Part shown: piece after piece, positions 31,195 through 54,515 of the stretch
How positions within the stretch are numbered: position 1 is the first letter of the stretch
Layout of the letters: each line of letters opens with the position of its first letter
Assembly (NCBI GenBank): GCA_023078555.1
Contig: CM041196.1
Coordinates: forward strand, 9,504,985 to 9,568,984
Direction: 5' to 3'
DNA from: Ulva prolifera
Lineage: Eukaryota > Chlorophyta > Ulvophyceae > Ulvales > Ulvaceae
DNA: 64,000 bases
Notes under the pieces: model-generated
The model's input: only the letters and a program-made list of their open reading frames with translations
Database searches by the model: none
What the model was told of the DNA's origin: nothing
Position numbers and translations under genes: made by a program

Positions 31195-31548
31195 CATGTT
31201 CGTCCGGGCTTCCGGACGGATTCCGCAAGGCTCTGCCGGAACGTCCCCGGATCCGGAATCATTCCGAAATTTTAAGCATTCTTCCTCAAACAGTCCTCTG
31301 GATGCATCGCGGATCCTTTGCGCGTTCCGGCACCGCTCCGGAAACGTTCCGGCGGAACACCCACGTGGAGTGCACTTGGAAACCACCCGGTCGGAACGCT
31401 CGCGGAACTTCCTCCCACGCTCCGGACTGCCTTCCGGACGCTCCGCTAACAGTCCTTTCGCCGTTCCGGGGGCTCCGCCACGCTTCCGCCCCTCTTCCGC
31501 GAGCCGTCCTCGCACGTTCCTCACCACCACGTCACCATTCTCCTAGTG
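31195..31548. repeat. Right subterminal repeat region and terminus of element B
   Basis: TTCCGG/TCCGGA-type words are packed every 10-20 bp from about 31200 to 31510. The order matches part of the element A tail (GGATCCGGAATCATTCCGAAATTT here, GGATCCGAAATTT there). The terminus reads ACCATTCTCCTAGTG, close to the A terminus. These are the expected binding repeats for CACTA element proteins. Confidence 0.75.
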
Positions 31549-31919
31549 TGGAGGTCCCAGGCTCATGCGCGCAGAGAAGCGCATTGATAGCTGGCCTCCG
31601 CGAGCAGCTCGATGACGACGAAGTCATCGTGCCGTTACCGCTGTCGTGGAACGAAATACAGGCGTGGATCTCCTATGTCGAGGGACAAGGCCGCGCAGAT
31701 TCTGGGCCCTTCAGTTGGCGCCACTGCATCGAGCTCGAGGAAGCAGACCGTGACGCGCCAGACCACGATGCCACGCTCGTGCGAGCCCTGAAGGTAGGCT
31801 ATCGCAGGGCTACTTCATGGTTTTGTGAGCTATACATGCAATATCTCGATCGTCCTGTCCGTGTTGTGGGTGGCCACCCATGGGCCTGGCGCATCGATGC
31901 GATAGCACAATGCATAGTA

Positions 31920-32153
31920 CCGTACTAAATTAAGTCCATCGAGATGAGATTCGGTTTCAGTGTTTGTTTTCTCCCGTTCACTCTTTTGTAATAGTCCATC
32001 GACAAAAAGGCAGCGTTATATGGGGTCTAGGTCTAATAAATATTGTTTTTGCTGGGCCAGTCACTCCGAAAACTACTGATTATATATACCTAGCTGGGTA
32101 CCTAGAAAACCCAGCGTTATGCGTTACATGTCGATGGACTGAATTTAGTACGG
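31920..32153. mobile_element. MITE with TA target duplication (Tc1/mariner-like), in intron 1 of copy 1
   Basis: The left terminal repeat (31920-31942) begins CCGTACTAAATT and continues AGTCCATCGA. The right terminal repeat (32130-32153) is its complement with one mismatch. TA flanks both ends (31918-31919, 32154-32155). Without a nested 60-bp insertion the element is about 174 bp and has no coding capacity. The TA duplication and terminal repeats point to a non-autonomous Tc1/mariner-like element. Confidence 0.8.
31943..31992 (+). mobile_element. 50-bp insertion with 10-bp target duplication (copy 1 of short retroposon-like repeat)
   Basis: AGTCCATCGA occurs at 31933-31942 and again at 31993-32002, flanking a 50-bp insert that carries TTCGGTTTCAGTGTTTG and ends CACTCTTTTGTAAT. 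The insert lies within the left terminal repeat region of the MITE, so it is younger than the MITE. Confidence 0.85.
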
Positions 32154-32358
32154 TATATATATGCACTGCATACGCGTTGCACCGGTTCATGTACGGCTGT
32201 TCCGTAGCTTCTGCTGGTCATGGACTTTATCATAGCATTATTTTAGAGAGTTGAGTTCTTGTACATGCCCGCGTGGCACCGTGGCAGTGTGCATGAGGGC
32301 TCCATATTTGATCACCGACACTGCTGAGAACTCTTTCGAATGGCCATGTTTCGAATCG

Positions 32359-32405
32359 CTTCGGTTTCAGTGTTGGTTTTCTCCCGTTCACTCTTTTGTA
32401 ACAAG
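32359..32405 (+). mobile_element. 47-bp insertion with 12-bp target duplication (copy 2)
   Basis: TGTTTCGAATCG occurs at 32347-32358 and again at 32406-32417, flanking a 47-bp insert almost identical to the core of the 31943 insert (TTCGGTTTCAGTGTTGG to TCACTCTTTTGTAAC). Two unrelated sites with different duplications of the same tiny sequence show that it is inserted DNA. Confidence 0.85.
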
Positions 32406-32479
32406 TGTTTCGAATCGACCGACCCGTGACGTCCCTGCGTGCACAGTCGTGCGGTTGTGGTGTGATCGTGTGTGTATGT

Positions 32480-32550
32480 ACATGTGTTGCTGTTGATTCG
32501 GAGGAGATTCGGTTTAGGTGTTTGTCTTCTCTCGTTCACTCTTTTGTAAA
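32480..32550 (+). repeat. Short retroposon-like repeat, copy 3
   Basis: It contains GGAGATTCGGTTTAGGTG and ends GTTCACTCTTTTGTAAA. It is longer at the 5' side than copies 1 and 2, sharing TTGCTGTTGATTCGGA with the inverted copy at 31018-31090. I could not identify a clear target duplication. Confidence 0.65.
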
Positions 32551-35500
32551 GCCTGAGCCCAGGGGGGCATGTCCTGTACAGCATCACATTCTTGTTGATT
32601 ATACCAGTGCACTATTGCGGCGGCGTAGCAGCATGTAACTTTGTCGCCGCGTTCAGCTGCAGTCTAGCATGCCAGAGTCAACATTAATATTGTCCCAGTA
32701 CTAGTGGATGTGTGGCTGTGCGATCACTGATCATGAGGGCATGCATACACGATGTCACGGCCCATCTCATGCGCCACTGGCATCGCACGCGCGCGCCTCG
32801 CAGCCTAGTTGCAACTGAGGTTCGGCTAGCATGCGGAGACTCTCGGAGATCTTGGAGATCCAGCCTGATCATCCAGGCGTCCCTGCGGAGTGGTGCACGC
32901 TCAGCGCCGCCGCCTCTGCAGCTGACGATGCTGCCGGGATTTGTACAGGCTGCTGACTTCCTCCGCGATAGCGCCACCGTCGCGCAAGTGACTGACGCCC
33001 TCGCAGTGTCGCTGGACCAATCCGCCGGGTGCAGCACTGCATGGCATGGCCCCGCACTGCATGGCATGCATATGATCATGTCGAGCCAGCAAGAGCGGGC
33101 TGTCGGGGTGCGGCCTGATCTTTCCTGCATATGCATGTGACGCAGATGGACACCCCAACCTGAGGCCCGGTGAGGCGGCCGAGCTTGTTCACACATCGAT
33201 ATTTCGTTCGAGGCGCCTCGCCTGGTTGCAATAGCTGCCACACTACATTAATGGATTCAGGTGTGCAGCCATGCATGTATACACATGTACACACATCATG
33301 ATGGCTGCCGGCCACAAGCGGCCAGATCTAGAGAACACCGGCGGCGCGATCTGCTCATCTGCCACAGCCGAATCATCCTGAAATTTCAGCTTAAGCATCT
33401 GGAAGTGTGACTGGCGAGTCCATGGACGCACGCTCATATTCGCACAAATTCACTCTTTGTCACCACAAATTTGTGGTCTACTTTAAAGTAGATACTAGTA
33501 GTTTGCACGACTGCTGACATACTATACTGTAGTAGTAGTAACACAAGGCCGGCCGGCTGTGCAGATTGTGAGGGCGGTGCCGCACACATCTGTGCTGGGT
33601 ATCCTGACCGCGATGTACAGGCTGACCCACCCGCTCCGCTATGCCATGCCACCATCGGCCGCAGGCCGTGGCATCGATATCACCCCGTTCAGTCCACTTG
33701 AGCCACCCTCAAGCGACTTCTTCGGCCCGTACGTCGGGCCGCTGCTGCGGGCGCTGCCTCCAAGCTTCCACCCGGCCGTGGTGCGTGCATGCTGCTTGGA
33801 CCCTGCCGACGTTCTCTCCTGTGACCTCCGGGTTCTAGAGCCGGAGGCGAGTTCAAGTTCATCCGATGACGATCTCGGTGTCTATATCGAAACTATATAT
33901 GGATACAGTATATACTCGGAACCTGAGTCGGAGCCTAAGGTGTCATCACCCTGGTATGACGTGGGTGATCAACAACTGACGGAGCTCCTCGCCGCAGCAG
34001 CGCCGCTTGCTGGGGGATGCTTCAAGTGTGCATATGCATGGACTTCATGCATCGGTGACGGTAGCGGGAGCGATGAAGTTCCAGATGACTGGTACCACCA
34101 TGGACTGCTTCTCGCAGCTGGCTCCAGAGACCCCTATGGCGCGCATACATGTGGAGATCATCCGGCGGCGGGGTGCGGGCCGGAATGGCGGCTGCCGGAG
34201 GGGGGCCTGACGACGCTAAGGCTGGGCATCGATGATTCACGAGAACCCAAGACGGCTCGCTGGTGCACCGCGCTGGCGCAGCTCCGCACGCTGCGCTCAC
34301 TTGCAGTCGAGGTGTTGTGGGGACCGATCGGGTGCAGCATGCGAGACTTCACGGACGCGCTGCAGCACCTGCTCTCCCTGACTCACCTGTGCATCAAGTA
34401 TAGGTGCCTGCAGTACAAGAGGCGGTCGCACATTCGAGGATCGGGCCCCCCCCCTGGCAACGACGACTGGCTGCTGCTCGAGGGCGTCGGCACGCTGACG
34501 CAGCTCCAGTCCTTGGACCTGGACTGCTGCTACAACGCTGCCGCGAGCCCGGAGAGCGGGAGGTGTGCATTCGCGGCGCGCGCCATCGCGCAGCTGACGC
34601 AGCTGTCGCGACTGACATGCCTGCGCTACACCGGTGCCGCCATCGCCTCGGAGAACACCCAGCGGCTGGCCGAGTCTATTAGAAGTCTGGCGTCTCTGCG
34701 GGAGCTGTATGTTGCTCTGCTGGGGTACCGGTCTCACTTATTCCGTAGCACCGAGCCCTGGGGCGGTCATGCTGATCAACTTGAAGCTGGAGTTGACCAC
34801 GAGCCCGGCGCCCCCCCCCCCCCATGTCTGCCGCTGAATCTATTTCAGGCACCAGGGCTGAACTTGCTGCAGCATCTCGAGATGATCATGCAATTTCACC
34901 AATCCCCCTCAACCAGAGTAGATATCTGTTAAAGGCCGATCACAGAGTGCCATGCATGTATGCGTAAGCACGCCCCGGCCCTGCTGGCCAGGCTGACCGC
35001 GTTGCGTCTTGGTGCCGGCCTCTTTGGGTGTGAGCCCGAGGGCGCCTCTGTGGCACCCCTGCTTGCTGACATGCCGGCGCTCCAGTCGTTGCATCTCAGT
35101 TCCGTCGCTAAAGCAACGCGTTGGATGCAATCGGATAATGTTTGGAGCTCACGGGATCTCCTCAGCCTGGCCGGGGTGCTGCCGGGCATCGCAGGCCTGA
35201 CACGCCTCGACATCAACAGCTGCTACGCCAGCAGCGCCGCAGTGTTGGCGGTGCTGACCGCTCTAGCCCGGCCCGGCATTCCAGTGTGCGAGGGGCTGCG
35301 GGACCTTGACATCGGGCGCAACAACATTGGGCCGCAGCACGCGGCGGAGCTCGCCGGCCTGCTGCGGCAGTTCCACAACCTCGAGCGGTTGGGTATTGAG
35401 TTCCTGGGGCATACTGGCACTGGGCCGTTTGGCCTGGAGGGTCTGAGGGTGGTGTTGCGGGTTGTGGCCACTTTGCCGCGGCTACAGGTGCTGAATGCGG

Positions 35501-35583
35501 TGCGAAATTGCCGTGCAGAGGACAAGGCGGCAGCCTGGGACCTGACCGCGGGACTTGTGCATGTCAGTGATATTCAGTTGTGA

Positions 35584-36512
35584 GCAATGGCTCTGCAGTA
35601 ATGCGGTAGAAATTCTTGCATGTATACTACGTAGTGCACGTTCATTCGGTGTGTTTCATGCTGCGTGTGCCAGTGATGTGTGCTTGCGGCAGTGTGGGTT
35701 CACTGGGGCCGGTGCTGTTGAGCGGTCCCTAGGGCCTGCGCAGTGCGCTTAGGCCTGCGCAGTGCGCTTAGCTCTCGCTGCAGTATTCCGATGTATCAGC
35801 TGATGTAACCTCCAGGCTAAGCCAGATCGAGCTGTCGGCAAGCATCATGCCGCTGCAGTGACAGTGCGATGTATCCAACAAGCAGATCAGGTCTGCAGTC
35901 ACTACATACGGTATGTCAAGACATCAGGTCGAGCGCATGATGGTCCGGCTCGCCCTGTCAACGACCATGATGGTTACACTGCCAGGCCTAGGCTGCTGTG
36001 TCGCTGGCGTGGCGGATGTCTGCCACAGAGCGCGGAGTGCATGCATGAGAACTGGGTACTGACTTCACGGCAAGGCCGTCTGTGTAGGGATGTGTGCACT
36101 GCCGGTGTGGGGTCGCTTTTCAGGATTTCAAGGACTGCCACCCCAAAAGTAGATCTGAATATTCGGAATTGTTCTATGTGATCATGATCGGGCCCGATTG
36201 ACCCAACACTGGTGCACTGCACCGCTTCATGTGGGTCTGTTGTCTTGACTGTGGCTCACAGCATGCACCCGATCGATCGACGTCGACTACTAGCTGCTAG
36301 TAGCAGCTACATCGAGTAGACCTCAAAATGTGCACACCATTCAGAGTACACGCAAACATGAGATCATACCAATCTGCAGAAGATGAAGAGTGCACAGACA
36401 AATTGCCACACAAATATCGCCTACCCCGCGGCCATATGCATGCCAACCAGTCATGAAGTGAATCGCGAAACCCCCTCCATGCATGGAGATTGTACAATCC
36501 CGCAGTCCACAT
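35584..36512. other. Intergenic, duplicated at 40637-41420
   Basis: No gene seen. Several stretches match the region after copy 2 (for example GAGCGCATGATGGTCCGGCTC at about 35932 against about 40927, and CAGAGTACACGCAAACATGAGA at about 36340 against 41272), so it belongs to a segmental duplication. It also contains a 19-bp direct repeat, GGCCTGCGCAGTGCGCTTA, at about 35733 and 35752. Confidence 0.6.
36107..36213. repeat. Dispersed repeat of about 100 bp, copy 1
   Basis: It shares TGTGGGGTCGCTTT at its start, TGAATATTCGGAATTGTT in the middle and CCAACACTGGTG at its end with copies at 48005-48102 and 59366-59455. Confidence 0.8.
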
Positions 36513-36840
36513 GTTCCATCAAAAACGGAGGAAACACAGGGAACAGAGCATCACACAAGTTCCACGCTCCTCCATTTTGTTGTGCAGGAGCGGTCAGAGG
36601 CCTGGCTGCCAGAGGCGGTGAGTGCATGTGCAGTCATCGCCGGAGACGTGGCTACTGGGGTTGTTCGCAATGACGGCGGTGGCGGTCACGCCGCGCAGGT
36701 CGGACGACGGCAGAGCAGCAGAGGCGCCGCGGCTCCGGATGACGCAGATGTGGCAGACGGCGTCATGGAAGGAACACCAAAGCATGATTTGGACATGCAG
36801 GAATGACACTAGGAGCTTGACAGCTGTTGTGAAAGACATT
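36513..36840 (-). pseudogene. Remnant of a beta-helix repeat gene
   Basis: The left edge (36513-36560) matches the C-terminal end of the intact gene at 41421-41465 (CGGAGGAAACACAGGGAACA in both). The segment 36590-36790 on the minus strand encodes LRGVTATAVIANNPSSHVSG and the preceding GASAAL, matching LRGVTATAVVANDPGSHVAA and GASAAL near the N-terminus of that gene. Everything between is missing, so this is a copy with a large internal deletion. Confidence 0.75.
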
Positions 36841-38206: not shown

Positions 38207-40636
38207 ATGAAACGCCAACGCATCGATGTGCCACTGCTGCAACTCTGCTTGACTGAATCCGCGGTTGTGGTTCTGGGCGGGCCCAGTGATCTGGAGATCC
38301 CTGCCTCCTGTGCGAGCGGCAGCGCGCTCATAGGCGACCTCCGCGAGCAACTCGATGACCATCAAGTCACTGTGCCGCTACCTTTATCCTGGAACGAGGT
38401 GCAGGCATGGGTAAACTATGCCGAGGGGCGCGGCAGCGCTGGTTCTGGGATCAGCGCCAATTCCAGCAGCATCCAGGAAGAAGACGCGGCAGACCTGGAC
38501 GTCATGCTGACAAACACCCTGCAGGTGAGATAGCAAGCGCAATGTGATGCCTCTGTGAGATTACAGGGTCACTGTGTTGTTCTGCTCGTGATATGGCGGG
38601 CTTGGTGCATGTCAGTGAGCATGCCTTGCTCAAGCAGCGCAACCGCGTGGTACCTGCTTGCCCTGGAGACGATCTCAAAATTTGTATCTACAGACGGCTA
38701 CATGCGAGCCTGGCACTTCTGGTGTCTATGCTGATTCAGCCTATGACCACTGACATGGGGGCTGCCAAACACAGTCTACCCACGTTGGGTCTGTGATCTG
38801 CAGCACATCAGACTGTCCATCCCAATCAGCAGCTACTGAGTAGCTCCCTCATATAGCTCACTTTCAAACGTCCGACGACCTGCACAATGAATAATGGTCG
38901 GAAGCAAGTGACGATCCATTCACTGTTGCCCACACCGCTGTTGTGTTGTGTCCGAGCCTGAGGATCTCGGGGACTGGCCCTGAGGCCTAGGCACATCAGA
39001 CGCCCAAGCATCTCCGAGGTGTGAATGTTTGAGTGGGTCGTGGCACTGCCCTTGACGCTGCTGACGGGAGTGTCCGCAGGCTGCTGAATTCCTTCGAGAC
39101 GAAGCCACCATCATGAAAGTGGCTAACACCCTCATAGATACGCTGGCTACTTTTACAGCCACCAACCCACTGTCTCCGAAGGAGCAAGTTCGAGCTGGAA
39201 ACGTGCGGCCTTGAACATGCGTGTCATGCATGCACTTGACTGCCACGCTGCAGGCTGGCAGGCGACCCACACATCTGCCAGCTATTTCTTTGATTTTTGC
39301 ATGCTCCATCTCATGATATGAACACACATGATGTCTGGCCTGTGGGTTCAAATGGATCATCATGTACGTCGCCACATGGGCGAGCCTTTGCCCTTGAGGT
39401 CAGTCCCTGTCTCAGAAGCATGTGCTCCCACGCAGACACCCGCTATGCAGATCCTGCGGGCTCTATCCCACGACAGCGTGCTGGCCATCCTGGCAGCTGC
39501 GTACAGAAGGCCCCGCGGGCCCGAAAGGATGTCAGATCTGTTGACTCATATGTTGGACATCATCGGGCATGATGGCGCCACTAGCTCATACTTCCGCCCA
39601 CCTCCGCCAGCGCCACCTAGCCCCTACGTCGGGCGGCTGCTGCCGCTGCTTCCTCGCAGCTTCCACCCAGCCGCCGTGCGAGCGTGCTGCCTGGACCCCA
39701 CTGATGAACAATCGTGCCAGCTCCAAGCAGGATTTTTAGTTCTGCATTCCAGGATGCTTGACGAAGATAATGAGAACCTGGAGCAGGTCCTCGCGGCGGC
39801 TGCGATGCTTGCCGGGGACTGCCAAGAGCAAGCGTATGCATGTGATGCATGTGCTGGCGACGCTCGGGACACCAACTCAGGTTGCCATCACGATCACGGG
39901 CCCAGGTCCACCCCGAAATCAGACTCTCGCAAAGATTCATGTCGGCCGTCCGCGGGCACTTCCGGGGCCGGGTGCGGCGTGCAATGGCGGCTATCGGCGG
40001 GGGGCCTGACGCAGTTGCGGCTGCAGATCATCGAAGCATTTGGCGCGTATAGTCCCCCCCCGGAGGGTGTTCCATTGCCGCAGACGACACAGGCGCCCGT
40101 CCGCTGGTGCACCGCGCTGGCGCAGCTCCGCACGCTGCGTTCAATCGCATTCGCTATGGCGGGCGGACGGCTCACGCACAGCACGGCCGCGCTGCGTCGT
40201 CTCCCGGCCCTGACACACCTCCACATCAGGTACATGGACGTCAGCGCGCGTGTCCATCCTGAGGGCACCCTAAACGCCAGAACATACAACGACCAGCGCA
40301 GCTGTGTTGGCGGTGCTTCGTGCTCTACCGCGGCCTGATTTTGCGGATTGTGAGGGGCTGCGGGACCTGGACATCGGGCGCAATGACGTTGGGCCACAGC
40401 ATGCGGAGGAGCTGGCCGGCCTGCTGCGGCAGTTCCGCAACCTCCAGCGGCTGGGCATGCAGGATCTTGGGCTCGATGCGCATTCTGGCTTAGAGGGGCT
40501 TAGGGTGGTGCTGCCGGCCGTGGCCACTTTGCCGCGGCTACAAGTGCTGAATGCGGAGCGGAACTGCGGTTCAGACAAGGCAGCGGCCTGGGACCTGACA
40601 GCGGGCCTTGTGCATGTGACGAGAATTCAACTGTGA
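38207..40636 (+). pseudogene. SKP1/BTB-like plus LRR gene, copy 2 (internal deletion)
   Basis: Exon 1 (38207-about 38525) starts MKRQRIDVPLLQLCLTESAV and contains EIPASCASGSALIGDLREQL and PLPLSWNEVQAWVNYAEG, ending at a CAG/GTGAGA donor. Exon 2 (39080-about 39202) begins AAEFLRDEATIMKVANTL. Exon 3 (39451-40636) begins ILRALSHDSVLAILAAAYRR and has YVGRLLPLLPRSFHPAAV, the CCLDPTDEQSC motif and early LRR sequence (LTHLHIRYMDVS). Near 40265-40310 about 290 codons present in copies 1, 3 and 4 are missing and the frame changes. It resumes with AAVLAVLRALPRPDF and CEGLRDLDIGRNDVGPQHAE and ends LVHVTRIQL. Likely non-functional. Confidence 0.75.
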
Positions 40637-41407: not shown

Positions 41408-44179
41408 TCAGTCAACACCTTCTATCACAATCGGAGGAAACACAGGGAACAGAGCATCCCACACAGGTGCGGCAGTCAGGCCACAGCCCCCCTCCGCAAC
41501 CACCTCCACGCCCCGCACCTCCTCAGGCTGACATCTGTCACAGTGACTTGGCCCGTGGCATAGCATCCCCACCACGGCCACGCCCCCCGCCACCTTGCAC
41601 TCACTGAAACAGCTCCTCTCCGCCATGACTGCCCTCGCCACACGGAGGCCCACAGCGCACCTGGCCACATCCACCCGCCGAGCCGTCATCACAGCATGCA
41701 TCGACACAGCCACCCCCATGTCGCTGCAGTCACGCACCTGAACCGCCTCGAGCGTCACGCGCGCCTGGGCCCCCTCATGCACGCACCGGGACTCCCGCCC
41801 CTCCGCCGCGCCGCGCGCGCGCAGCGCGTCCCATGCGTGCTGAAGCGCCTCGGGCCCGCACCGCCCGCAGACGCCGCACGGCGCCTCAAAATCGTACGAC
41901 CCTTCCCCCACATGCATGCCGGTTGCGCAGCCGGAGACTTGCGTCTCTCGCACCCGCATGACCGCGCCATTGGCAACGTCCACCCCAACGCCCCCCGTGG
42001 ATAGAGCGCAGCGTAGGAGAGAGGCCCGGGTGAGCACCCCGGCAACATGGACCCCCCTTTGTGCGCCTGACAAGCTACAGGAGACGAGCTTCAGGTCTGC
42101 GCGGCCGGCCGTGCGCGCGGTGGCCGCGATGCCCGCGGCGTGAGCTTTGACACGCTTCGCCGTGAGCGCGCCACCGCCCGGCCGCACGAGCAGCGCCGCC
42201 GGTCCGGCGGTGCACTCGCAGTCCTGCGCCGTGAGGTTCCCACCGCTGGCCACAGCGAGGGCATGGCGTTTGGCGTGAACTTCACTGTCGACGACCGACA
42301 TGCTCGCGCCGCTGCTCGCGACAAAGGCATCTCGTACGCCCTGCCCCACCGTGCACTTTCGCACTGCACACGTAGCCACCGCGCCTTCCGCGAAGACCGC
42401 TCTCGTCGCGTCAGCGAAACGGCATCCCACCACCGACGTGTCTGCAAGGGTCTTCACGCTCTCGCGGCCCCTCACAGCACCCCCCTCGAAAGAGCAATCC
42501 TCAATCTGCGCTGACCCGTCTTTCTCCACGATGATGTCCCGCCGATGGCCGCGGAACGAGCAGCCCCGCACCGTCACCGCCGGCACCGCGCGCAGACCGA
42601 GGCCACCTTGCATCCCTTCAACGCCTAGGTCTGCACCAAGAGCAGCTAGAGACACACGCACCGCGTCCCTCATGCCTTCATGCCCCTCAAAGCGGCACCC
42701 GACGATGTCGGCTCGGGCCGCCCCATGCACCTGCACCGCCCGGCCGTACTGCTTCATGACAACCTCATGCATGCGTACGACGGTCGGCGCCCCCGGCCTC
42801 CGCGAGGCGATGACGCCAAACATGCAGTCCTCCACCGACCCGCCCTCGACGTCAATCTCCCCGCCGGTGCAGATGTACGCGGCTGGAGGGTCGGCGATGC
42901 GAGCGCGCCCCGCGGCGTCGCGCTGCTTGGCTGAACTCGCGACCACCGCGCTCATGTGCGCCACGCGGGAGTCCTTCACCCGCACCCGGCCGCAGTTCAC
43001 ATGCATGCCGATGTAGCCCTCCGGGATGTCGCAGCGGAGGAAGCGGCCGCGCGCGCCGTCCTCCACCATGACGGCCGCGTCAGGCAGGACGTCCCCCGAC
43101 TGCGGCAGCTCACCCCCCCGGAAGCACACCCCGACCGCCGCAACACTGGCGTTGCTGGACGCATAACACGCAGCCCCCGCGGCCGCGACCTGCCCACCCT
43201 CAAACCTCATGGCCGCGCCCGAGCACACAAAACACGCGAGATCTGCGCCACGGGCGTCGCAACGTGACAACACCGCGCGGCTGCGGCGGCCATCCGCCAC
43301 CACAGCGTGGCCGCAGCGTAGCCGGCACAGCAGCAGTGCGGCGGCACCGCCCGTACCGACCCTAAGCGCCAGCCCGTCCGGACTCTGCATGTCGCAGCGC
43401 ATCATCTGAAGCCGCGCTGCCCCCTGTGACCACTTCAGCGGCAAGCTGTCCAGCCTCACAGCGATCGCCTCCGCGGGCCCCTGGCCACAGAACTGGACGC
43501 CCGTCATCGTCCCCCGGGCACCGTCCACCAGCGTGCATGCCTCAGCGCAGCGGATGCTGCTCTCGCACACTTCCAGTGACGCAGTCGCACCAGCGGCGAC
43601 GGCGGTCAGGCGAAAGTCGGCGATGTGGCAATGGCGCAGGCGCGCCGTGCCGCCATGCATGCGCAGCCAGGTCCCTTCGTTTGGGGTGCAGGGGCTGCTG
43701 GTGTCCTGGCTGCCGGTGCCGATGAGGGTGCAGTCGTCGGCGGCGACGTGGCTACCGGGGTCATTTGCAACAACGGCGGTGGCGGTCACGCCTCGCAGGA
43801 CGGACGACTGCAGCGCAGTAGAGGCTCTAGCCTCAGAGATGACGCAGATGCGGCAGTTGTGGAAGGAGCAGGCGGTGAGGGTGGCGGTGGTGGCGGGGCC
43901 GTGAGCAACCAGGGCGATGGGGCAGTCGCGCCAGGTGCATTGGGACAGGGCGGCGGAGGCGCCATGCACGATGTAGAGGGTGCACGCGTAGAAGGTGCAT
44001 CTCTGGAAGTTTCCGCAGAAGTCCAAGCCGGCACATATGACGGCGCCACCTGCACCGAGGAGCTGGTGACACCATGCAGTGGAAGCAGCTGAAGTACTTT
44101 TGTTAATTGACGCGGTGGGCAGTGGCGGAGCGGCTGACTGTGTAGGCAGAAAAGCAGGTTTGACCTGATCGGTACGCAA
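41408..44179 (-). CDS. Large right-handed beta-helix repeat protein (pectin-lyase-like fold)
   Basis: An uninterrupted frame of 923 codons from ATG 44179 to the stop at 41408. Almost the entire length is made of irregular 20-25-residue coils with alternating small, hydrophobic and Cys residues, such as LSQCTWRDCPIALVAHG, LRHCHIADFRLTAV, FEGGQVAAAGAACYASSN, IEDCSFEGGAV and LLRCALSTGGVGVDVANG. This is the pattern of parallel beta-helix (PbH1) repeats seen in pectin-lyase-like folds and in proteins such as FBXO11 and NosD. Cysteine is very frequent. A Cys cluster near the C-terminus (CGVCGRCGP) stands out. No catalytic motif, clear signal peptide or F-box was seen, so a binding or scaffold role is more likely than an enzyme. 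It sits tail to tail with LRR copy 2, and a remnant sits in the same place after copy 1. Confidence 0.75.
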   Translation of the reverse strand: MRTDQVKPAFLPTQSAAPPLPTASINKSTSAASTAWCHQLLGAGGAVICAGLDFCGNFQRCTFYACTLYIVHGASAALSQCTWRDCPIALVAHGPATTATLTACSFHNCRICVISEARASTALQSSVLRGVTATAVVANDPGSHVAADDCTLIGTGSQDTSSPCTPNEGTWLRMHGGTARLRHCHIADFRLTAVAAGATASLEVCESSIRCAEACTLVDGARGTMTGVQFCGQGPAEAIAVRLDSLPLKWSQGAARLQMMRCDMQSPDGLALRVGTGGAAALLLCRLRCGHAVVADGRRSRAVLSRCDARGADLACFVCSGAAMRFEGGQVAAAGAACYASSNASVAAVGVCFRGGELPQSGDVLPDAAVMVEDGARGRFLRCDIPEGYIGMHVNCGRVRVKDSRVAHMSAVVASSAKQRDAAGRARIADPPAAYICTGGEIDVEGGSVEDCMFGVIASRRPGAPTVVRMHEVVMKQYGRAVQVHGAARADIVGCRFEGHEGMRDAVRVSLAALGADLGVEGMQGGLGLRAVPAVTVRGCSFRGHRRDIIVEKDGSAQIEDCSFEGGAVRGRESVKTLADTSVVGCRFADATRAVFAEGAVATCAVRKCTVGQGVRDAFVASSGASMSVVDSEVHAKRHALAVASGGNLTAQDCECTAGPAALLVRPGGGALTAKRVKAHAAGIAATARTAGRADLKLVSCSLSGAQRGVHVAGVLTRASLLRCALSTGGVGVDVANGAVMRVRETQVSGCATGMHVGEGSYDFEAPCGVCGRCGPEALQHAWDALRARGAAEGRESRCVHEGAQARVTLEAVQVRDCSDMGVAVSMHAVMTARRVDVARCAVGLRVARAVMAERSCFSECKVAGGVAVVGMLCHGPSHCDRCQPEEVRGVEVVAEGGCGLTAAPVWDALFPVFPPIVIEGVD

Positions 44180-46752
44180 AACAGCAGCGAGGGCCTTTGA
44201 CTAGGCAGCTGGCGGGACTTTCACCCTTGAACGTGTAGCGACAAGTATCCTAGGACCGCAGATCGATAGTCTGTGAACGGCAGCCGCTGATGTCTGTGCT
44301 CTGAAGGGACTTGCTGCATGCACAGCTGCAGTGCAGCTTTGCCAGTGCATCGGCACCGGCATGACGCACATCAACGGTAGAGCCCGTGTCTGCCGAGGGG
44401 CATGACTGTGCTGTGGAGACGCGGACTGAGAGGGCATGCCAGTCATGATGGTTGATTTCAACAGGGCCGTGCCCGGACTTTAATTGTGCCTCGGCATTGC
44501 GGCAGGAGGCCAACCCTGGCACAGGGATCACACGATTCTCAAGGGCCAGACTACCACGATGATGGCATTGAAGGAGCAAGGGCCCGCAGGATGGAAACGT
44601 GTACATGTGAGCCAGGTCATGGGAGGCCTCACGTCATCCCATGAATGATGCACCACACACAGCACAGCGTGAGCATGTACTGAGATACTAAGCTCTATGC
44701 CTGCCGCAGCCTTTGCATCTGCACAGATTCCCTTGCGAGATTGCAGCTATCATGACATGCGTGTATCAGTTTGAACTTAGATCAGGCGGCGCTCACCGTT
44801 GAAAGTGGTGTCCGTGAAACGTGCTCCTTTGCCAGAGAGCAGGAAGATACCATCTGGGGCGATGGAGATGGACCCGTCCGCGACAGAGCCACCGAAACTG
44901 GTGCACCTCCATACATCGAAGGGTGTCCCGATACCCAGCGCCCCATTCGTATGTTATTTACGGCGCAATTCATGCGGCAGGACCACATGCAGGTTGCGGG
45001 CGGTGATCTCTCGCACCAGATCCTCCAGCGATGCCACATCCCTCTGCACTCAGCCAGGCATTTCCTATTACAGGAATTTATTCATTTGTGTCACGGCCCA
45101 AAACCGCTGGGCTAGGCGTCAGTGGACAGCCACGGCGAACCACTTGTCATGCGACACATTCCTGGTCGAAATGACTGCCTGATAGCTCTTCACGGCAACT
45201 TTAGCAGAATTTTATAGACTATAAAAACACGACGGTGGATTCCAACTGTTCTATCGTCAAGTGGATGGAGATCTCGCGAAGGCGTGCGTTGCTGCCAGCG
45301 ATCCTGACGTCGGGATCGTACTCAAGGTTCGAATGTTGCACGCATAGCAGCTCCCAGGCAAAAGCTCTGACAGATATGCGCACCGTGTCGCATGTATAAT
45401 CCTTCATCTTTGTCGACTTGAAGCATGCTGCACCGAGCCATCTCAGTTCCGATGTTGGCACAAGGTCTATGACGGGCGTCGGAACCCCGGAACTGCCACA
45501 CCCGCACTTAACACAGACACTAGGACGACGAACAGTAGCAGAAGTATGCGTTACGTGCGAGATGTGGCCGCAGGCGTGGGCGCGGACGGCACGCTTGCCG
45601 CGAGCGCTCCAGCATTCTGTAGACATCAGCTTGCGCAGCCTGAGGCGCAAACACACGAACGCCGGCAGGTGATAGGACCGTTTCGACAAGTTTCCACAAA
45701 TAAGTTGAACATGATCCGTGTCATGCTCACGCCGAAGTCGCTAACGAGCGTGGGCGACAGGCGCCCAGGCCACGTAACAAGGGACCCCTCCAGACACTTC
45801 GGAAGTTGAGACACAGACGGACGTACAGAAATCCAGGCAGGCTAGACCACGGAACGTAGTGGATATCAGCGCTGTATCATTTAGCTCCTGGTGGCATCCA
45901 GACTCAAACCTCTGTCCGGGATGCGTACGGCAAGGCGTAGCTTCCCGGCGGGCCTGCAAGAGATGAAGCCGCCCGGCCACGTTGCATAGGAGACTGCCGA
46001 AGATCACCAATACCGTAAAACATTGTCAAAGTTGTTGCGTTTTCAAGTGCGGCTAGATGCAGAGCCCCTTCGACTGTGCGAGACAGGACACGCGTGGCAT
46101 TGACACTTGCAGTTGCGCGTCTGGCGCCAGGATAATCACAAATCGGTCACCAGAACGCTTGACGGGTAGCCAGCTGGCAGCGAGGTTGCCAAATGACGTG
46201 CCACCTCGGCGGAGACACCTTCTCATGACCACCCATCAGACTGCCCGATGTGTGCACTGGCACACATACCTGCGACTGGTTATTCCTTCATTGTCATACC
46301 CAACATCTGCAACAGCGGCCGTCCGAGGTGATCGGCTGTGCAGACTGTCCAGGCTGGGTCCAGCAAGTGCACCAGGCCATCTGCGACGCATGCAAAACAG
46401 CACGCACGCGCTCCTCGACACATTGATCCGGCCTGGAGGTTGCGACGCCCCCAGACACTGGCATGATCTGAAAGCTGCAGGATTACACAGCCACGGCAAG
46501 CAGAGCTGTTGCAGATCAGTGAACAAGGCGGGGGTGCCCGTCGCCACAATGGGGACTCTGGAAACGTTAACGCCTTGGCGGAGATTCAGTATGTTAGTTC
46601 AGAAAGACAATCTGGTATAGTTGACATAGCAGTATGGCAAAAGAGTGGGCACATCAACGCCGCTTGCAACACGACTCTATTGACACAGTCATTGATCCAG
46701 GCTGCTCGTTGTCATCCGCCTGTCACTTGCCGCTCAGACGTCACAGGCTCGC
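44180..46752. other. Region with scattered coding-like frames, no gene identified
   Basis: On the minus strand, 45689-45219 contains a long frame with a protein-like second half (VIDLVPTSELRWLGAACFKS, then SVRAFAWELLC). A short frame at about 45035-44950 reads VASLEDLVREITARNLHVVL and stops soon after; its pattern resembles the end of a STAS domain of sulfate transporters. These may be exons of one minus-strand gene, but the link is not established. The rest (44180-44770, 46010-46750) shows nothing I can name. Confidence 0.25.
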
Positions 46753-47919
46753 ATGGATTCCCCCGTGAAAAGTGAAAGTGCCAGTCTGCGCCTCACTCGC
46801 GATGCAGCCTCTGTGTTGGTCTCGGGCACGACTGACGTGCTGGACATCCCTGCCTCCTGTGCGCAGCGAAGCACGCTCGTAGCTGACCTCCGCGACCAAC
46901 TCGATCATCACGAAGTCGTCGTGCCGCTGCCTCTGGGCTGGGACGAGGTGCAGGCATGGGTGACCTGTGCCGAGGGACAAGGCAACGCTGGTGCTGGGAA
47001 CAGGGCCGTGGCCAGCAGCGCCAAGGGAGAAGACGCGGCAGGCCTGGACGCCACGATCACGCGCGCCCTGAAGGTGAGATATAATTTCAAGTGCTGGTAT
47101 GGTGACTGGTTCGTTCTGCTCGTGTCATGGGCCGGCTTGGTGCACGGCAGTGAGCATGCCGTGCTCAGGCAGGGCTGCTTCGTGAGTCCTGATGGCGATG
47201 AATACTATCACAGTACTTCGATCAGCGGAAGGGTGACATCTACGCATGGCTCTGCTGGTGTGCATGCTGGGTCCGCCCAGATCTCCTTGACATTGGGGCA
47301 CTCTGAACCCACTCATCCAACGCGGGGTCTATCATCTGCAGCACATCAGACTGCTCATCCGAGACAACGGCTGCTCAACCACTCAAAATCTCCCTTTCAG
47401 TACCTGACTTCAAAGAGTCTAAAGATCTGCACAATGACTCCCTGCTTGAAAGCAAATAACAAAGCTGCTGCTGCCCACATCCGACTTGCATTGTTTCCGA
47501 GCCTGAGGGCCCGGGGGACTGGCGCTGAGGCCTAGCCACAGCAGCGCTCCAGGATTCCCCGCGTGTTTTGTGTGTAGCAGCACTGCCCTTGACGCTGCTG
47601 GCGGGAGCACACGTACAGGCTGCCGACTTCTTCCGAGACGATGCCACCGCCGCACAAGTCACTGACACGCTCGCAGACCTGCTGGCTGCGTTCACAATCA
47701 CCCCCCCCGTCTGCAGAGGACCAAGCTCGAGCTGCAAAGGTGCTTCCTGGACTTGCATGCTGATCATGCTTTCAATACACAGCCAAGCAAGCTAGAGACC
47801 GGCAGGTCACCCACACGGCGGTCTGCTGTGTGGAAACACACATCGTCACTCGATGGAGTCTCCACATCACATCGTGACAGCATGCTACAGTATCTCTGGC
47901 TGATGATGTCAAAACGGAT

Positions 47920-47952
<33 letters not shown>

Positions 47953-50061
47953 AGTCGTCCCTGAGATCACACACCCGTTGATGGTCGATTGTGCCTGGTA
48001 AGCAGTGTGGGGTCGCTTTGCAGCATTTTCAGGGTTGCCACCCAAAAACAGACCTGAATATTCGGAATTGTTACATATGATGTGGCCCGACGACCCAACA
48101 CTGGTGGTGAGAGACGCGTCCGGCTGTGCAGATCGTCCGGGCAGTGTCCCACAATGACGTGCTCGAGATCCTCACCGCCGTTTGCAAGAAAACCCATCCA
48201 CGCAACAGATCACCGAATGCCGTGGCCTTTGAACATGGCTCCAGCAGCTCATACTTCCGCCCACGCCCACCTGTCCCTCTCGGGCCGTACGTCGGACGGC
48301 TGCTGCAGCTCCTGCCTCGCAGCTTCCACCCGGCCGTCGTGCGCTCGTGCTGCCTTGACCCCACCGACCCGCAGTCGTGCGACCTCCGAGTGCTTCACTC
48401 AGTACCGGAGCTCAGCACGCATGACAGATATTTAAGTAATGAAGAGCTAGCGCAGCTCCTCGCGGCGGCAGGGCCTCTTGCCGGGGGCTGCGTAGAGCAA
48501 GCCACTGCCGGCACCGATTCCAGCCGACGACTCCAGCCTGATCAGCGCGCGCCTGGAACGCCCGCCGGAACAGGTTCCTGCGTCCATGCATGTGATGGGC
48601 CATTCGAGACGGGGTGCGGCGCGGAGTGGCGGCTGCCGGAGGGGCGCCTGACGCGGTTGAAGCTAGGCATCGATGAGTCACGTGGTGTTCTTCAAGCCCC
48701 TGCGGATGGTGATTCATCTTTGGGGATCCAGCAAAAATCCGCCCGCTGGTGCAATGCGCTGGCGCAGCTCCGCACGTTGCGATCCCTCGCGGTCGCGGCT
48801 GCGGGTGGAGGGCTCACGTACAGCGTGGGCGAGTTCACGGCCGTGCTGCGCCGCTTCCCGGCCCTCACACACCTCCGAATCTCATACGCAGATCTCGGCC
48901 AGAGTCCCCAGCTCGAAGATACCCCAGCCGCTAGAGCAAACGGCGTTTTGCAGCTCCTCGAGGGGGTTGCCATGCTGGGTTCGCAGCTGCAGTGCTTTGA
49001 ACTAGGCCGCTGCTCTGATGTTGCTCCATCCGCGGACCGCGCACACCTCGAGTCTGCAGCTGGCGGCATTGCCCAGCTGTCCCGCCTGTCGCGGGTGACA
49101 TGTCTGCGCCTGACTGGAATGGTGTTCACATCTGAGCTTGTGCTTGCATGGGCTGAAGCCATCGACGAGCTGCCAGCTCTGCAGGAGCTCGACATCGTTC
49201 CGGTGCGGGGCGCCGTATCCAGCGCTCAGCGGGAAAGTAGCGCGGCCGGCTCAGCCCCTGGACGTGGCGCAGCTGGCTCAGCCCACAGCGTGCTGCTGCG
49301 GAGCCTGTTTGACATTCCGGGGTTGCCGTCGCTGAGTCATCTCCAGATGGGTGTAGAGGAGGTCCGGGGACGAGTCGACACGATGTCGGACGAGGCACTG
49401 CTGGCAGACTGCCATGCATGTATGCGCAAGCACAGCCCGGCTCTGCTGGCCAGGCTCACTAGCCTGTGCCTCGGCCCGGGCATGTTTGCCTGCGGGCTGG
49501 GGGGTGGCTCTGTCGCAGCCCTGCTCGCAGACATGCCGGCGCTCTGTTCGCTGCGGTTGACTGCATCCTCGGACGGGTTTGCAATGGCCCAATTCCGCGC
49601 TGATGGCCTGATGAGTTCGCGGGATCTCCTGAGCCTGGTAGATGTGTTGCCGGGCATGTCAGGGCTGACACGCCTCGATATCAGCTGCTGTGGGGCCCGC
49701 GGCGTCGTGGTGCTGGCGGTGCTGACCGCTCTAGCGCGGCGTGGCGTGGAGGAATGTGAGGGGCTGCGTGAGCTGGACATTGGGGGGAACGACGTCTGGC
49801 CGCAGCACGCGGCGGAGCTCGCTGGCGTGCTGCGGCAGTTCAGCGGCCTCGAGCGGCTGGGCATGCACAACCATGGGCATGCACAACCATGGGGCTCAAC
49901 GGGCGATTCGGCCTGGAGGGGCTTGGGCCAGTTTTGCTGGGTCTGGCCTATCTGCCGCGGCTACAGGTGCTATTTGCAGTGCACAATGTCCTTCAGGCAG
50001 ACAAGGTGGCAGCTTGGGACCTCACCGCTGGCCTTGCGCACGTGAGTGATGTTCAGCTATG
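46753..50061 (+). CDS. SKP1/BTB-like plus LRR gene, copy 3
   Basis: Exon 1 (46753-47073) starts MDSPVKSESASLRLTRDAAS and holds LDIPASCAQRSTLVADLRDQ and PLPLGWDEVQAWVTCAEG, with a donor AAG/GTGAGA. Exon 2 (47619-about 47739) is AADFFRDDATAAQVTDTLAD and following. Together they resemble SKP1: an N-terminal strand-helix half and the later helix of the AANYLDI type. Exon 3 (48132-50061) has PYVGRLLQLLPRSFHPAVV, CCLDPTDPQSCDLRVL, then LRRs (LTRLKLGID, LTHLRISY, LTRLDISCCGARGVVVLAVL, CEGLRELDIGGNDVWPQHAA). The reading frame shifts near 49870-49895, beside a 16-bp tandem duplication (GGGCATGCACAACCAT). In the corrected frame it ends FGLEGLGPVLLGLAYL to AHVSDVQL, TGA at 50059-50061. TGTAA lies at 50138. 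Confidence 0.72.
47921..47951. repeat. Poly-G tract of 31 bases
   Basis: An uninterrupted run of G in the second intron of LRR copy 3. It can form G-quadruplexes, and its length is unlikely to be exact in the assembly. Confidence 0.95.
48005..48102. repeat. Dispersed repeat of about 100 bp, copy 2
   Basis: It begins TGTGGGGTCGCTTTGCAG, contains GACCTGAATATTCGGAATTG and ends CCCAACACTGGTG. It lies about 30 bp before exon 3 of LRR copy 3. Confidence 0.85.
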
Positions 50062-50891
50062 AGATATCTAGATCTTCCCTGTTGAATCTTCCCTGTTTTT
50101 GGTTGGCAATGGGAATTTGCAGTTGCTTATTTCGAGTTGTAACGCGTGTCTGCATCACGACAACTCTGTGTGCACCAAAGGTGGCTGTGGGCCGGTAGCA
50201 GGAGCTGACATGTGTGCTCCGCCAGTGCGACTCCCACCTCAGAGCACGTTCTTGCACCAACCTGTCCCCTCCTGCGCTCTGTAGCACTGCAGCGACTCTC
50301 ACTCTCAGCGACTCTGCAGTCATTCACCACCGTGTCAGTCGTTACAGAAGAGGGGACGATGGTTGACAAACACACACAAAGAACCTCGTCCGGCCCAACG
50401 TTGTACAGCCACCCGCACGCGGCCACACTACAGCAGCTCACACCCCTGAGGCCGCATCAGCCCATGGTGGTCACACTGCATAGCCCCCGCAGGACCCCGG
50501 GGCTGCACCCTGTGGCTGGGCAGGTACCTCAGGCACCTGGAGGTCAGTGCCGGTGACAGCTAGCTGGCGCGCCGACGGAGCTGCAGTGAGCAGCAAGCCA
50601 TGGTGCTCGGCAGTGGCACCCCATATGCATGCCAACCTGCTCTCCCACATTGATGTGCTCCTACGCAGCAGTGCCCAGAGCCTAGTGGGACGCTTGCAGT
50701 TGAACGGCCCGTGCTTCAGACGGGGTTCGTGTACGCGTGTCGCCTTTGCATGTCACAGGTTACATCATGGTGCCACTTGACGATGTCCAGGGCGCCTGAC
50801 CTGTTACACTCAACAAAGGGGAGCTGCATATGTGTCATGTCCAGAAAGGCCCGGGCACGCTCGAGCGAAAAGTATGTCTACAAGGCTCACC
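50062..50891. other. Intergenic between converging LRR copies 3 and 4
   Basis: No gene seen. Candidate TGTAA polyadenylation words lie at 50138 (plus, for copy 3) and 50764 (minus, for copy 4). Confidence 0.5.
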
Positions 50892-53800
50892 TCAGAGCCG
50901 GATGTCGGCCACATGCCCGAGGCCGGCAGTCAGGTCCCAGGCTTCATCCTCCTGTTCCCACCAGTAGTTCCCGCGTGCGTCCAGGCTCTGCAGCCGCGGC
51001 AGCGATGCCAGTGCCGGCAGCACCACCCGCAGCCCCGTCAAGCCAAAAGCTGCCTTCAAGCTGATGTGCTCGATGCCCAGCCGCTCGAGGCTGCGGAACT
51101 GCTGCAGCAGGCCGGCCAGCTCCGCCGCATGCTCCGCCCTAACCTCATTGTACCCGATGTCCAGGTCCCGCAGCCCCTGACCCCCCACAGAACTGCGCTC
51201 CCGAGCCGCCAAAGCGGCCACCACCTGGAGCACAGCCTCAGCGCTAGCGTAGCAGTTATGGATGTCTAGGCGCGTGAGCCCTGCCATGCGCGGCAGCACA
51301 CCCACTAGCTCAACAATTCTTCGGCAGTGTTTTGACACCCACCGTTCGTGAGCGATGCTATCCCCATTGGTGATGAGGCCTCTAGTTGGCCAATGGAAAC
51401 ATGGCTCCAGATGCAAAGACTGGAGCGCCGGTGTGTCACCCAGCAGGGCCGCTAAGGCTCCCTGGGACCAGTCAAACATGCCGTGGCCAAGGTGCAGGCC
51501 AGTTAAACGGGTCAGCAGCGCTGCGTTCTTCTCACGCATGCATTGATGGAAGCGCCTCACGAAATCCCGGCTGTCGTCCACTAGTTCTGAATAGCCCGGG
51601 TTGTGGACAAACACCGCCAGATGCTTCAGCGCCGGAAGCCCCGACCCGTCAAAGAGGCTCCGCAGTAGCCCATTGCGGAGCCTGCGGTGTCCCGCGTGCA
51701 TGCGCCGTTTACGGATGCGCTCGCCACCGCGGACCCAGCAGCCCCGTACCCCAACATGCAGATTCTGCAGGCCTGGCAGGTGCCGAATTGCATGGGCAAA
51801 GGCGCGTATGTGCTCCGAGGCGCCTGCAACCTGGCCGTAGCAGCTCCCAGCGTAGCACACGCCGGTGTAATGCAGGGAAGTCAGGCGCGTCAGGCGTGAC
51901 AGCTGCGCGATGGCCCTGGGCCGTGTGCTGCCGAGGGCTGGCGTCAAGTCACAGCAGCCGTCCAGGTGCAACGACTGGAGCTGAGTGAGCATGGCGAGGC
52001 CGTCTATAAGCCGCCTAGGGACAGACATCGACTGCATGTGCGCCATTCGCCGCCGGTGGAAGCTTGCGGAGTGGGGGTCGGAGAGGCTGAGGCACGTGAG
52101 TGCCGGGAGCCGCTGCAGCGCGGCCATGAAGTCACCGACGCTGTGTGTGAGCGGCCCATGGCTCATGTCGACAGCCAAAGACCGCAGCGTACGGAGCTGC
52201 GCCAGCGGCGTGCACCAGCGGGGGGCCTTCTGCGTCCCGTCGACGGCCAGTTGCAGCCGCGTCACGCCCCCCGCCGGCAGTGCTGGCCGCCACTCTGTGC
52301 CGCAGCCGAGTGACGGGTCATTGCCGCACGCATGGGCACCAGGGTGCCCTCGAGACACGGCTACCCGCGCGGCAACTCGCGGCGGAAGCTGGTCTGGATG
52401 GGCTTCGTCTTCGCCGGCTGTCTGTTGAGCACATGCATGCGCACGTCGGAGGCACCCCCCGGCGAGCGGCGCTGCCGCTGCGACGAGCTGCGCCAGCTCA
52501 TCCTCATCAGCGCGCAGGCGGCTCGAGCCCAGGCCCAGGTCTGACTCGGAGCACGAGCCCAGCACCCTGAGGTCGCACGCCTGCCTGTCTGTGGGGTCCA
52601 GGCAGCACGTGAGGACGACGGCGGGGTGGAAGCTGCGCGGCACGAGCGGCAGCAGCCCCCCGACGAAGGGGCCGAGAGGCTCCCTGGGGACTCGCCGGTG
52701 TGGGCTTGTGTGCCATTCGTCGGCCTCTCCAGCTGGAGGGGCCTCGGGGTGGCATGGGTGGGTTCTCTCATACACGCCGTCCAGGATGGCCAGCGCTGAG
52801 GCCTGAGAGGCCGTCTGGAGGATCTGCACCGTGACCGCCGATTGCACAGGGTGAATTTAACCTGATGGAGAGAGCCGGGAGGCTGCTGCGCTTTTCATCA
52901 GCATATACATGAAAAGTCGCTGTGCACAGCTTCCGGAATGGCCATGAAATTTCTGTGATCTGTCCACAGTTTCAGGAATACATAGTTATGACACGCCGCA
53001 ACGTTCCCAGGGGCTCGTGGTGCAGTGGGAAGATCACGGTGTCCGCCGGCCATGTGTGCAGGAGTACATCGAGTCCAACGTTGTTAACCATCACATGTGT
53101 TCACACATGGCATGTCAGTGCCGGCAGAACCGAACACGGTCGAGCGCACAGGCACAACGCACGCGTTTGCATGCAACGCCTGTCGCCTAAGCTTGGGCTT
53201 CGAGTTGCTGTCAGCAGAGGTAGTGCTGGGCGCATGCGCCGGACGATCCACGATGCGGCGGCGGTCGGAGCTTCACGCGGGCCAGCACTCGCGACCACGG
53301 ATGTGCGCGCACCGGTACCTCAGCCGGACGACTGTTGTTCGCAGAACATACCATACCGATAGCTATACCTAATAATCAATACCATTCAGGTCGGTACACA
53401 CGAATAGCAGTGTCGAGTCGCTCTGCAGCAGTAATACAATTAATCAATTACTTATATTTATCTATTAGCAATATTTCAGGGCGGCAGTTCAGAATGCAGA
53501 TGCGAGGATTCGGCAATGTTCCACCATGGCTGCAGCCAGGTACAGCTATAGAATGTGACCGGGCGCGTCGATCCAACACTGGCAAGCAGATCTCGAGGCC
53601 CCCCCGCACCTTTCCAGCGCGGGCGTGCTCTTCTAGAAGATCTTGTGACGGTGTAGATCCTCCAGTGGATAGGTCAGCCAGCAAGGCAGCGAGGGCGTCA
53701 ATCACTTGCGCGCCGGTAATGCCATCTTGAAGGAAGTCAGCACCCTGCACCCGACTTGGCAAGTAGCGCCAGTGCCACGCGCGGCAGGCCATGCATGTTG

Positions 53801-54515
53801 GTGTGGTATCGGCCGCTGCCGACATGCATGCTCACAACTATCCCATGTGCCACCTCATCACACGTCGCTATTGCTGCTAGGTACTGTATACAGTCTTGTA
53901 TACTAGTGTACATCTGAAGCATCAACTGAGATTGACATCAGTCAGAGGACTTGTCCGAATTAATTGAATGCCCTAGTGCGCTGCCTCCGGGAGCAGCTCT
54001 GCCAGCAGTGCCATGCTCAGATTTCATCCCATGGGTGCACTTAACGCTTTAGCTAGCTCCTAGATGGTCATCCACGTGGATCAATGTGAGCATGCATCGA
54101 TGTACAAGCAGCAGCCACGGCCGTGTGCGGCCAGTGCGCTGCATCCAGACTCGGCCCTGACTCTCGGAGTACAACACACCTTGAGCGCGCGTAGGAGCGT
54201 GGCATCGCCTTCTGCCTGGAGCTCTGCGGTGCGGCTTTCACCTCCGTGCAGCTCGTCATGAGATCGTGCGGTGGCGGAGGCGCCCTGCCACTGTGCACAG
54301 GCCGTCCATGCCTGCGCCTCCTCCCACGACAGTGGAAGCGGCAGCAAATCTCCGCCTTCATGGAGCTGATCCAGTAGGTTAACTATCAACGTGCTTCTTC
54401 GCACACAGGAAGCCGGGACGTCAAGAATGCCCTGCTTCGCCACGACTGACGCGGACGAAGCATCACGATCCAGGCGCAGCTGCACGAGAGAGGAACTTGC
54501 GCCATGAGATGCCAT
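50892..54515 (-). CDS. SKP1/BTB-like plus LRR gene, copy 4 (intact-looking)
   Basis: Exon 1 (54515-54180) starts MASHGASSSLVQLRLDRDAS and has ILDVPASCVRRSTLIVNLLD and PLPLSWEEAQAWTACAQW, with a donor AAG/GTGTGT. Exon 2 (53744-about 53620) follows a GTGCAG acceptor and reads GADFLQDGITGAQVIDALAA. Exon 3 (52823-50892) is a single open frame of about 640 codons. It starts ILQTASQASALAILDGVYER, then has LVPRSFHPAVV and CCLDPTDRQACDLRVLG. About 15 irregular LRRs follow (LTRLQLAVDG, LQSLHLDGCCDLTP, LTRLTSLHYTGV, LTRLDIHNCYAS, LRDLDIGYNEVRAEHAAEL, LERLGIEHISL), ending GHVADIRL. The architecture would unite a SKP1-like adaptor fold with an LRR substrate-binding surface. A role in ubiquitin-ligase recruitment is inference only. 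It is transcribed toward copy 3. Confidence 0.75.

Follow-up and report, generated by a model that had tools for sequence, protein, structure and literature searches.

FBXL proteins bring a substrate-receptor leucine-rich repeat (LRR) region beside a SKP1 module, using two chains and a clear F-box. BTB-CUL3 adaptors, such as the BTB-kelch and MATH-BTB proteins, unite adaptor and receptor in one chain according to the accepted CUL3 model (PMC4107866). In bacteria, 43 BTB-LRR proteins were noted in Protochlamydia UWE25 (PMC1257465), and the Protochlamydia PEX1 family is reported to have 73 members, all but three with a BTB domain (PMC4209131). Here a gene family of the green alga Ulva prolifera is described that seemingly joins a SKP1-like domain to a long LRR region in one chain. 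It was recognised in a stretch of 64,000 nucleotides (the window; assembly GCA_023078555.1, contig CM041196.1, C1:9504985-9568984). An earlier reading of these letters alone (the sequence-only reading) knew of no described family with this order, but the Protochlamydia BTB-LRR proteins had already been described and share with the Ulva proteins an N-terminal BTB fold followed by LRRs at the C-terminus of the same chain, copy numbers in the tens and birth-and-death expansion (PMC1257465; PMC4209131). However, PEX1 proteins are bacterial, were proposed to be secreted effectors, and had their BTB domains found by hidden Markov model, whereas the Ulva family is eukaryotic, has three exons and carries a domain of SKP1/elongin C-like type that goes unrecognised by Pfam in most of the members tested. 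PEX1 genes are intronless. Compared with BTB-CUL3 adaptors, the Ulva domain resembles SKP1 more than BTB, and the LRRs replace kelch or MATH; compared with the FBXL-SKP1 pair, the Ulva proteins are single chains with no recognisable F-box.

The four copies in the window are members of a large gene family in the U. prolifera genome. All four share a common layout of three exons in the same order and with the same motifs, as the sequence-only reading had it, and its motifs and exon order were confirmed in place (Table 1). In copy 4, the joined frame of 112, 45 and 643 residues (800 amino acids) is open throughout, and both introns are phase 0 and GT-AG. On balance, the proteins are probably single-chain substrate receptors of cullin-RING ubiquitin ligases that combine the roles of SKP1 and an FBXL protein. 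The N-terminal SKP1-like face encoded by exons 1 and 2 would dock on the cullin N-terminus, and the C-terminal LRR array of exon 3 would capture a target protein; a single chain would then perform the work of SKP1 and an F-box/LRR protein. The genome contains at least three cullin loci; like the cullins, the SKP1 genes, BTB places and F-box-like matches counted below are all lower bounds. Cullin binding and ubiquitylation would follow from this model, as might any immune or proteostatic role.

Paralogs were sought in the whole assembly (88.9 Mb in 44 contigs). Exon 1 matches 54 places (E <=0.1), and exon 3 gives 72 matches, of which several commonly fall in one gene; the family places lie mostly within C1:9.23-9.56 Mb and C9:3.3-3.7 Mb. 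The family is thus far larger than the "local gene family" originally proposed. For 37 of the 54 exon-1 places an exon-3 match follows on the same strand no more than 6 kb downstream (17 have none), against 15 for the same strand upstream, which are neighbours in tandem arrays, and four for the opposite strand downstream. Together with the gene models, this linkage supports the proposal that exons 1 and 2 are joined to an extended LRR region, as far as sequence can tell. Exon 2 was recognised at 24 of the 30 exon-1 loci studied, the four window copies included. Twenty-one members were modelled. Of the remaining loci, six had no exon 2, one nearly duplicated another locus, one contained inner stops and one offered no clear donor. 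For every one of the 21, intron 1 fits at a common point, in phase 0 and with GT and AG ends, the donor having been selected by us at the ALK motif among several GT sites; ALK or a near variant precedes it and AADFL or a near variant follows. When copy 3 is compared with the closest paralog that is complete (L032/L003), identity is 82% in exon 1, 84% in exon 2 and 70% in exon 3 (first 1700 bases), compared with 58 and 53% in the introns and 64 and 41% in the flanks.

The domain encoded by exons 1 and 2 is, judged by its sequence profile, SKP1/elongin C-like. An alignment of the 21 modelled members over these exons (A1) was compared by hhalign with reference alignments and calibrated with column-shuffle nulls; the SKP1 reference holds five sequences (one from the same genome, three from PDB alignments and one entered by hand) and is cut near residue 140; the alignment stops short of this point and thus covers the domain up to the C-terminal helices that bind the F-box. 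A1 scores 25.65 against SKP1, collinear over most of the domain, a value reached by none of 300 shuffles (maximum 23.78). The score is 21.76 with SKP1 plus elongin C (reached by 1/300), 20.01 with SKP1, elongin C and BTBs pooled (0/300), and 13.06 with six canonical BTBs (25/300). When four diverged members (see below) are added to A1, the scores are 25.17 for SKP1, 20.0 for elongin C and 31.15 for both together (0/150 shuffles each), versus 13.07 for BTB (6/150). The four diverged members alone score 17.75 with SKP1 (2/150), 18.16 with SKP1 plus elongin C (1/150) and 21.52 with elongin C (0/150). Known pairs give the scale, BTB versus SKP1 scoring 22.03 and elongin C versus SKP1 72.27, while two other control pairs, the exon-3 start and the F-box, score 7.75 (29 of 94 usable shuffles) and 13.6 (4/100) against SKP1. 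As the alignments are small and the choice of SKP1 was prompted by the finding itself, this profile evidence is good but not final. The sequence-only reading had likened exons 1 and 2 to SKP1/BTB folds; the calibrated profiles, the diverged gene L062/L068 and the structure matches bear this out for SKP1 and elongin C more than for canonical BTBs.

The structure comparison that it had proposed was run on exon 1. An AlphaFold2 (AF2) model of copy 4 exon 1 alone, which is weak, gives the order E-E-E-H-H-E-H. Elongin C and SKP1 were its best matches: the top Foldseek row is a SKP1-like protein, and rows 1-14 of a second look at the structure matches all come from SKP1 or elongin C complexes. The joined exons would presumably adopt the BTB fold in three dimensions. 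Besides profile similarity and the strand and helix order of the weak model, the Ulva domain shares with SKP1 and elongin C a PLP at beta3, an AAxxL helix and, in A1, a stretch of variable length after alpha3, where low-complexity insertions are reported for many SKP1s (PMC1257465).

A diverged clade provides a bridge to SKP1 itself. Searching the genome with the Pfam Skp1_POZ profile (PF03931) returned three places: SKP1 (L061), elongin C (L063, under the cut-off; the name is our own reading of the search outputs) and, on contig 2, L062. Alongside the family, the genome has a single ordinary SKP1 and a single elongin C. Exon 1 of L062 scores 22.5 bits, with the cut-off at 21.9. Downstream of it lie a counterpart of exon 2, AADLLIDKETTADVAHLIAGRL, and an LRR exon whose frame runs for 568 amino acids, and the junctions match. 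The joined gene (L068) has the same three exons as the window copies and scores 21.7 bits (E 2.3e-4), 0.2 bits under the cut-off. With the L062 exon-3 start as query, 39 places including itself were found (E cut-off 5; 28 rows at E <=0.01), and with a typed consensus of diverged exon-3 starts 44 (E cut-off 1; 27 rows at E <=0.01). Merged, these make 53 diverged-clade places, two of them near exon-1 places, so that about 105 loci (54 + 53 - 2) match some part of the family; these are loci that match one part at loose cut-offs and not whole genes, and the weakest members are insecure. Upstream of eight diverged loci examined, exons 1 and 2 were found in L068, L073, L075 and L078 and an exon-2-like piece alone in L074, L076 and L077; neither exon was found upstream of L079. 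The diverged exons have low profile scores (E 0.0024 for exon 1 of L075, 0.0029 for that of L078), and the other diverged exon 1 and 2 assignments were made by eye.

The resemblance to SKP1 could be due to chance or convergence, exons 1 and 2 encoding an unrelated small domain. Consistent with this, a PDB profile search with A1 gave no SKP1 match, NCBIfam gave no useful match, copy 4 has no family-level match over any cut-off, and slight cues could lead AF2 to reproduce SKP1-like folds that it has learned. Copy 4 also has a Pfam match to SERTA (E 0.0055-0.0092), an identity that was dropped as below the cut-off and confined to a single member; it was the sole Pfam match among six joined members. 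However, the shuffle tests and control pairs, the retrieval of SKP1 and elongin C complexes by the structure search, and a gene of identical layout at the Skp1_POZ cut-off (L062/L068) make this explanation quite improbable. No useful match came from a PDB search with L068 or from IMG/VR searches with A1 and with the SKP1 of this genome. Pfam matches of diverged members to CDC48_2 and GILT were dropped.

The model of exon 3 has about 14 LRRs of the ribonuclease-inhibitor type. In the AF2 model of copy 4 exon 3, a regular succession of 14 strands with intervening helices starts at residue 186; the "about 15 LRRs" of the sequence-only reading therefore fit copy 4 but not all four copies, as copies 1-3 are disrupted. 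Pfam LRR models are under the cut-off for copy 4 and over it for L068. Foldseek matches of the LRR model reach E 6.9e-9, with CARMIL, NLRC4 and ribonuclease inhibitor among the best rows and the TIR1-ASK1 and D3-ASK1 entries also among the matches, a likeness to the FBXL-SKP1 pairs of TIR1 and D3/MAX2. An NCBIfam match of exon 3 to XopL was dropped. The likeness to NLRC4 extends to NLR immune receptors, whose tandem clusters and broken copies also recall the Ulva family; the Ulva N-terminus, unlike theirs, is SKP1-like, and Pfam reported no NB-ARC in the exon-3 proteins scanned. For Ulva mutabilis a single likely NBS-LRR is reported, and the main text of that paper does not mention F-box or SKP1 (PMC8891106).

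The likeness to SKP1 has limits. The PxPN motif in beta3 of SKP1 is a cullin contact (PMC1257465), and it reads PLPL in 16 of the 21 members and [LV]P[LV] in all 21. In addition, Skp1_POZ gave no match in six c-type members (copies 3 and 4 included) or in three diverged members. The SKP1 of the same genome itself reads PLMN at this position. In SKP1 the domain is a stand-alone subunit, and in Ulva it is fused to LRRs. The exons may instead encode a BTB-fold interaction module that is no cullin adaptor and that forms homo- or hetero-oligomers, or holds the LRRs for signalling or as an NLR-like sensor. BTB folds have many types of partner (PMC1257465), the PxPN asparagine has become L in those 16 members, and the best LRR fold matches include CARMIL, NLRC4 and ribonuclease inhibitor. 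We regard this as a rather unlikely explanation, though one to be taken seriously, since the likeness is to SKP1 and elongin C, which are dedicated cullin adaptors, with scores of 25.65 and 13.06 for SKP1 and BTB. Pfam BTB (PF00651) gave no match in six joined members, and all four BTB places in the genome lie away from family members.

The start of exon 3 is conserved over about 50 residues in the diverged clade and about 90 in the window copies. Common to both clades, it occupies the position that the F-box has in FBXL proteins, and the proteins might accordingly be three-part fusions of SKP1-like, F-box-like and LRR regions, in which a degenerate F-box packs on the SKP1-like domain of its own chain. 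In the diverged clade the motif (L/V)S.DL.L.IL..AP aligns with F-box helix 1 at a score of 14.49, above all 285 usable of 300 shuffles (maximum 10.71). However, just 16 columns align, the eight F-box reference sequences were entered by hand, Pfam F-box (PF12937) gave no match in 14 of 14 members, and a PDB search gave no F-box match. Moreover, the AF2 confidence score (pLDDT) is under 50 for the exon-3 start, and none of the 23 F-box-like matches in the genome (17 over the cut-off) lies within 75 kb of any family place. An F-box-like helix at the exon-3 start is suggestive only, and the three-part fusion appears unlikely.

All four family copies reported by the sequence-only reading are present, but three are broken: between them they carry a stop, frameshifts and a deletion and have lost a start. 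The frame break at the C run of copy 3 may be an assembly error; this is less likely for the copy 2 deletion or the copy 1 TAA. Intron 2 of copy 3 contains a run of 31 G (window 47921-47951). The three disrupted copies, and stops in one copy of an apparent segmental duplication elsewhere on the contig, could mean that the window cluster consists mostly of functionless pseudogenes. This is highly improbable, given that exon 3 is open over nearly the full query in copy 4 and in the L002 and L003 paralogs and that exon-3 frames of at least 590 amino acids occur at 29 loci, of which two (copies 1 and 3) are broken. Ratios of nonsynonymous to synonymous substitution (dN/dS, NG86) are 0.495-0.559 over five exon-3 pairs and 0.83 for exons 1-2 in a single pair, of which the broken copy 3 is a member. 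No positive selection was apparent on the concave face of the LRRs: in six pairs, pN/pS at strand-exposed positions was higher than in the remainder of the LRR region in four and lower in two, with no clear rise. The apparent 43.5-kb duplication (C1:9426005-9441573 and C1:9469554-9485128) repeats three exon-1 places at equal distance, and its LRR gene is open in one copy and has stops in the other. Broken copies, local arrays and this duplication show expansion and decay of the family by tandem birth and death, which, for the single-chain receptors proposed here, would suggest varied or changing targets. Apart from copy turnover there is no evidence of an immune role.

Table 1. Positions of the family copies in the window and of the diverged gene L068.
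Feature	Position	Strand	Remarks
Copy 4, whole	54515-50892	-	only intact copy of the four; 800 aa
Copy 4, exon 1	54180..54515	-	ATG at 54515; N-terminal part of the SKP1/elongin C-like domain (beta1-beta2-alpha1-alpha2-beta3-alpha3 region)
Copy 4, exon 2	53610..53744	-	GADFLQD...IDALAALL, counterpart of SKP1 AANYLNI and the helix after it
Copy 4, exon 3	50892..52823	-	TGA at 50892-50894; conserved start ILQTAS...LLPLVPRSFHP...; start poorly modelled to residue 185, about 14 LRRs in residues 186-643
Copy 3, whole	46753-50062	+	three pieces, not intact
Copy 3, exon 1	46753..47073	+	complete, open
Copy 3, exon 2	47619..47739	+	frame break; run of 8 C at 47701-47708
Copy 3, exon 3 (LRR)	48132..50062	+	frame break at 16-bp tandem duplication from 49863
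Copy 2, whole	38207-40636	+	three pieces, not intact
Copy 2, exon 1	38207..38524	+	open
Copy 2, exon 2	39080..39201	+	
Copy 2, exon 3	39451..40636	+	middle LRRs deleted, frame broken
Copy 1, whole	31548-35583	+	three pieces, not intact
Copy 1, exon 1	31548..31793	+	5' part missing; ATG and beta1-beta2 counterpart not found
Copy 1, exon 2	32949..33105	+	3' end uncertain
Copy 1, exon 3 (LRR)	33565..35583	+	in-frame TAA at 34930-34932
L068	C2:4190800-4197799		diverged SKP1-LRR gene, exon 1 at the Skp1_POZ cut-off

Between the copies lies a beta-helix gene (window 41408-44200, minus strand) with an open frame of 930 amino acids that matches the right-handed beta-helix family PF13229 (E 9.8e-15). 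Remnants of it occur around window 35925-36725, and diverged repeats of the frame and the stretch preceding it adjoin copy 1; the tandem unit may therefore pair an LRR gene with a beta-helix gene. The window also contains two tandem repeats, one at 28415-29440 in which two units of 60/61 bp alternate with a period of about 121 bp, and one at 58750-58991 with a 38-bp unit. Elsewhere in the genome, a plastocyanin gene of two exons (L080, L081; C6:3831550-3832455) is identical to PDB 7pcy in 98 of 98 residues and less similar to 1iuz. PDB 7pcy is the protein of Enteromorpha prolifera, which NCBI lists as Ulva prolifera, and the identity points to this species or one very close to it as the source of the DNA.

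The single-chain union of adaptor and receptor is already known from BTB-CUL3 and bacterial BTB-LRR proteins, and the SKP1-like version is apparently new. No report of a SKP1-like LRR fusion, or of a eukaryotic family of this size, was found in searches of one open-access library, whose results did not show the main Ulva genome papers. Among GTDB genomes, a search with the A1 pattern and tblastn gave 102 pattern hits and no confirmed relatives, the PEX1 sequences themselves not being compared. A bolder and rather unlikely proposal is that Ulva has about 100 single-chain receptors made of a SKP1-like domain, a degenerate F-box and LRRs, which replace much of the SKP1/F-box split and plug into cullin; they would, by the present counts, be several-fold more numerous than F-box genes, with a turnover like that of immune receptors, and might perhaps serve degradation-based intracellular recognition.

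The docking and target-grabbing parts of protein-destruction machines are often on two proteins, and here they are seemingly on one chain in a fast-changing family. Nearly all tested members are missed by the Pfam SKP1 and BTB models. The family (54 exon-1 places plus the diverged clade) exceeds the 17 over-cut-off F-box-like matches, both numbers being lower bounds counted by exon. Provided that exons 1-3 function as proposed here, each protein would join a SKP1-type cullin adaptor to an LRR receptor, and the family would offer a testable model for the evolution of receptor repertoires in green seaweeds and for the absorption of an adaptor subunit into its own receptor.

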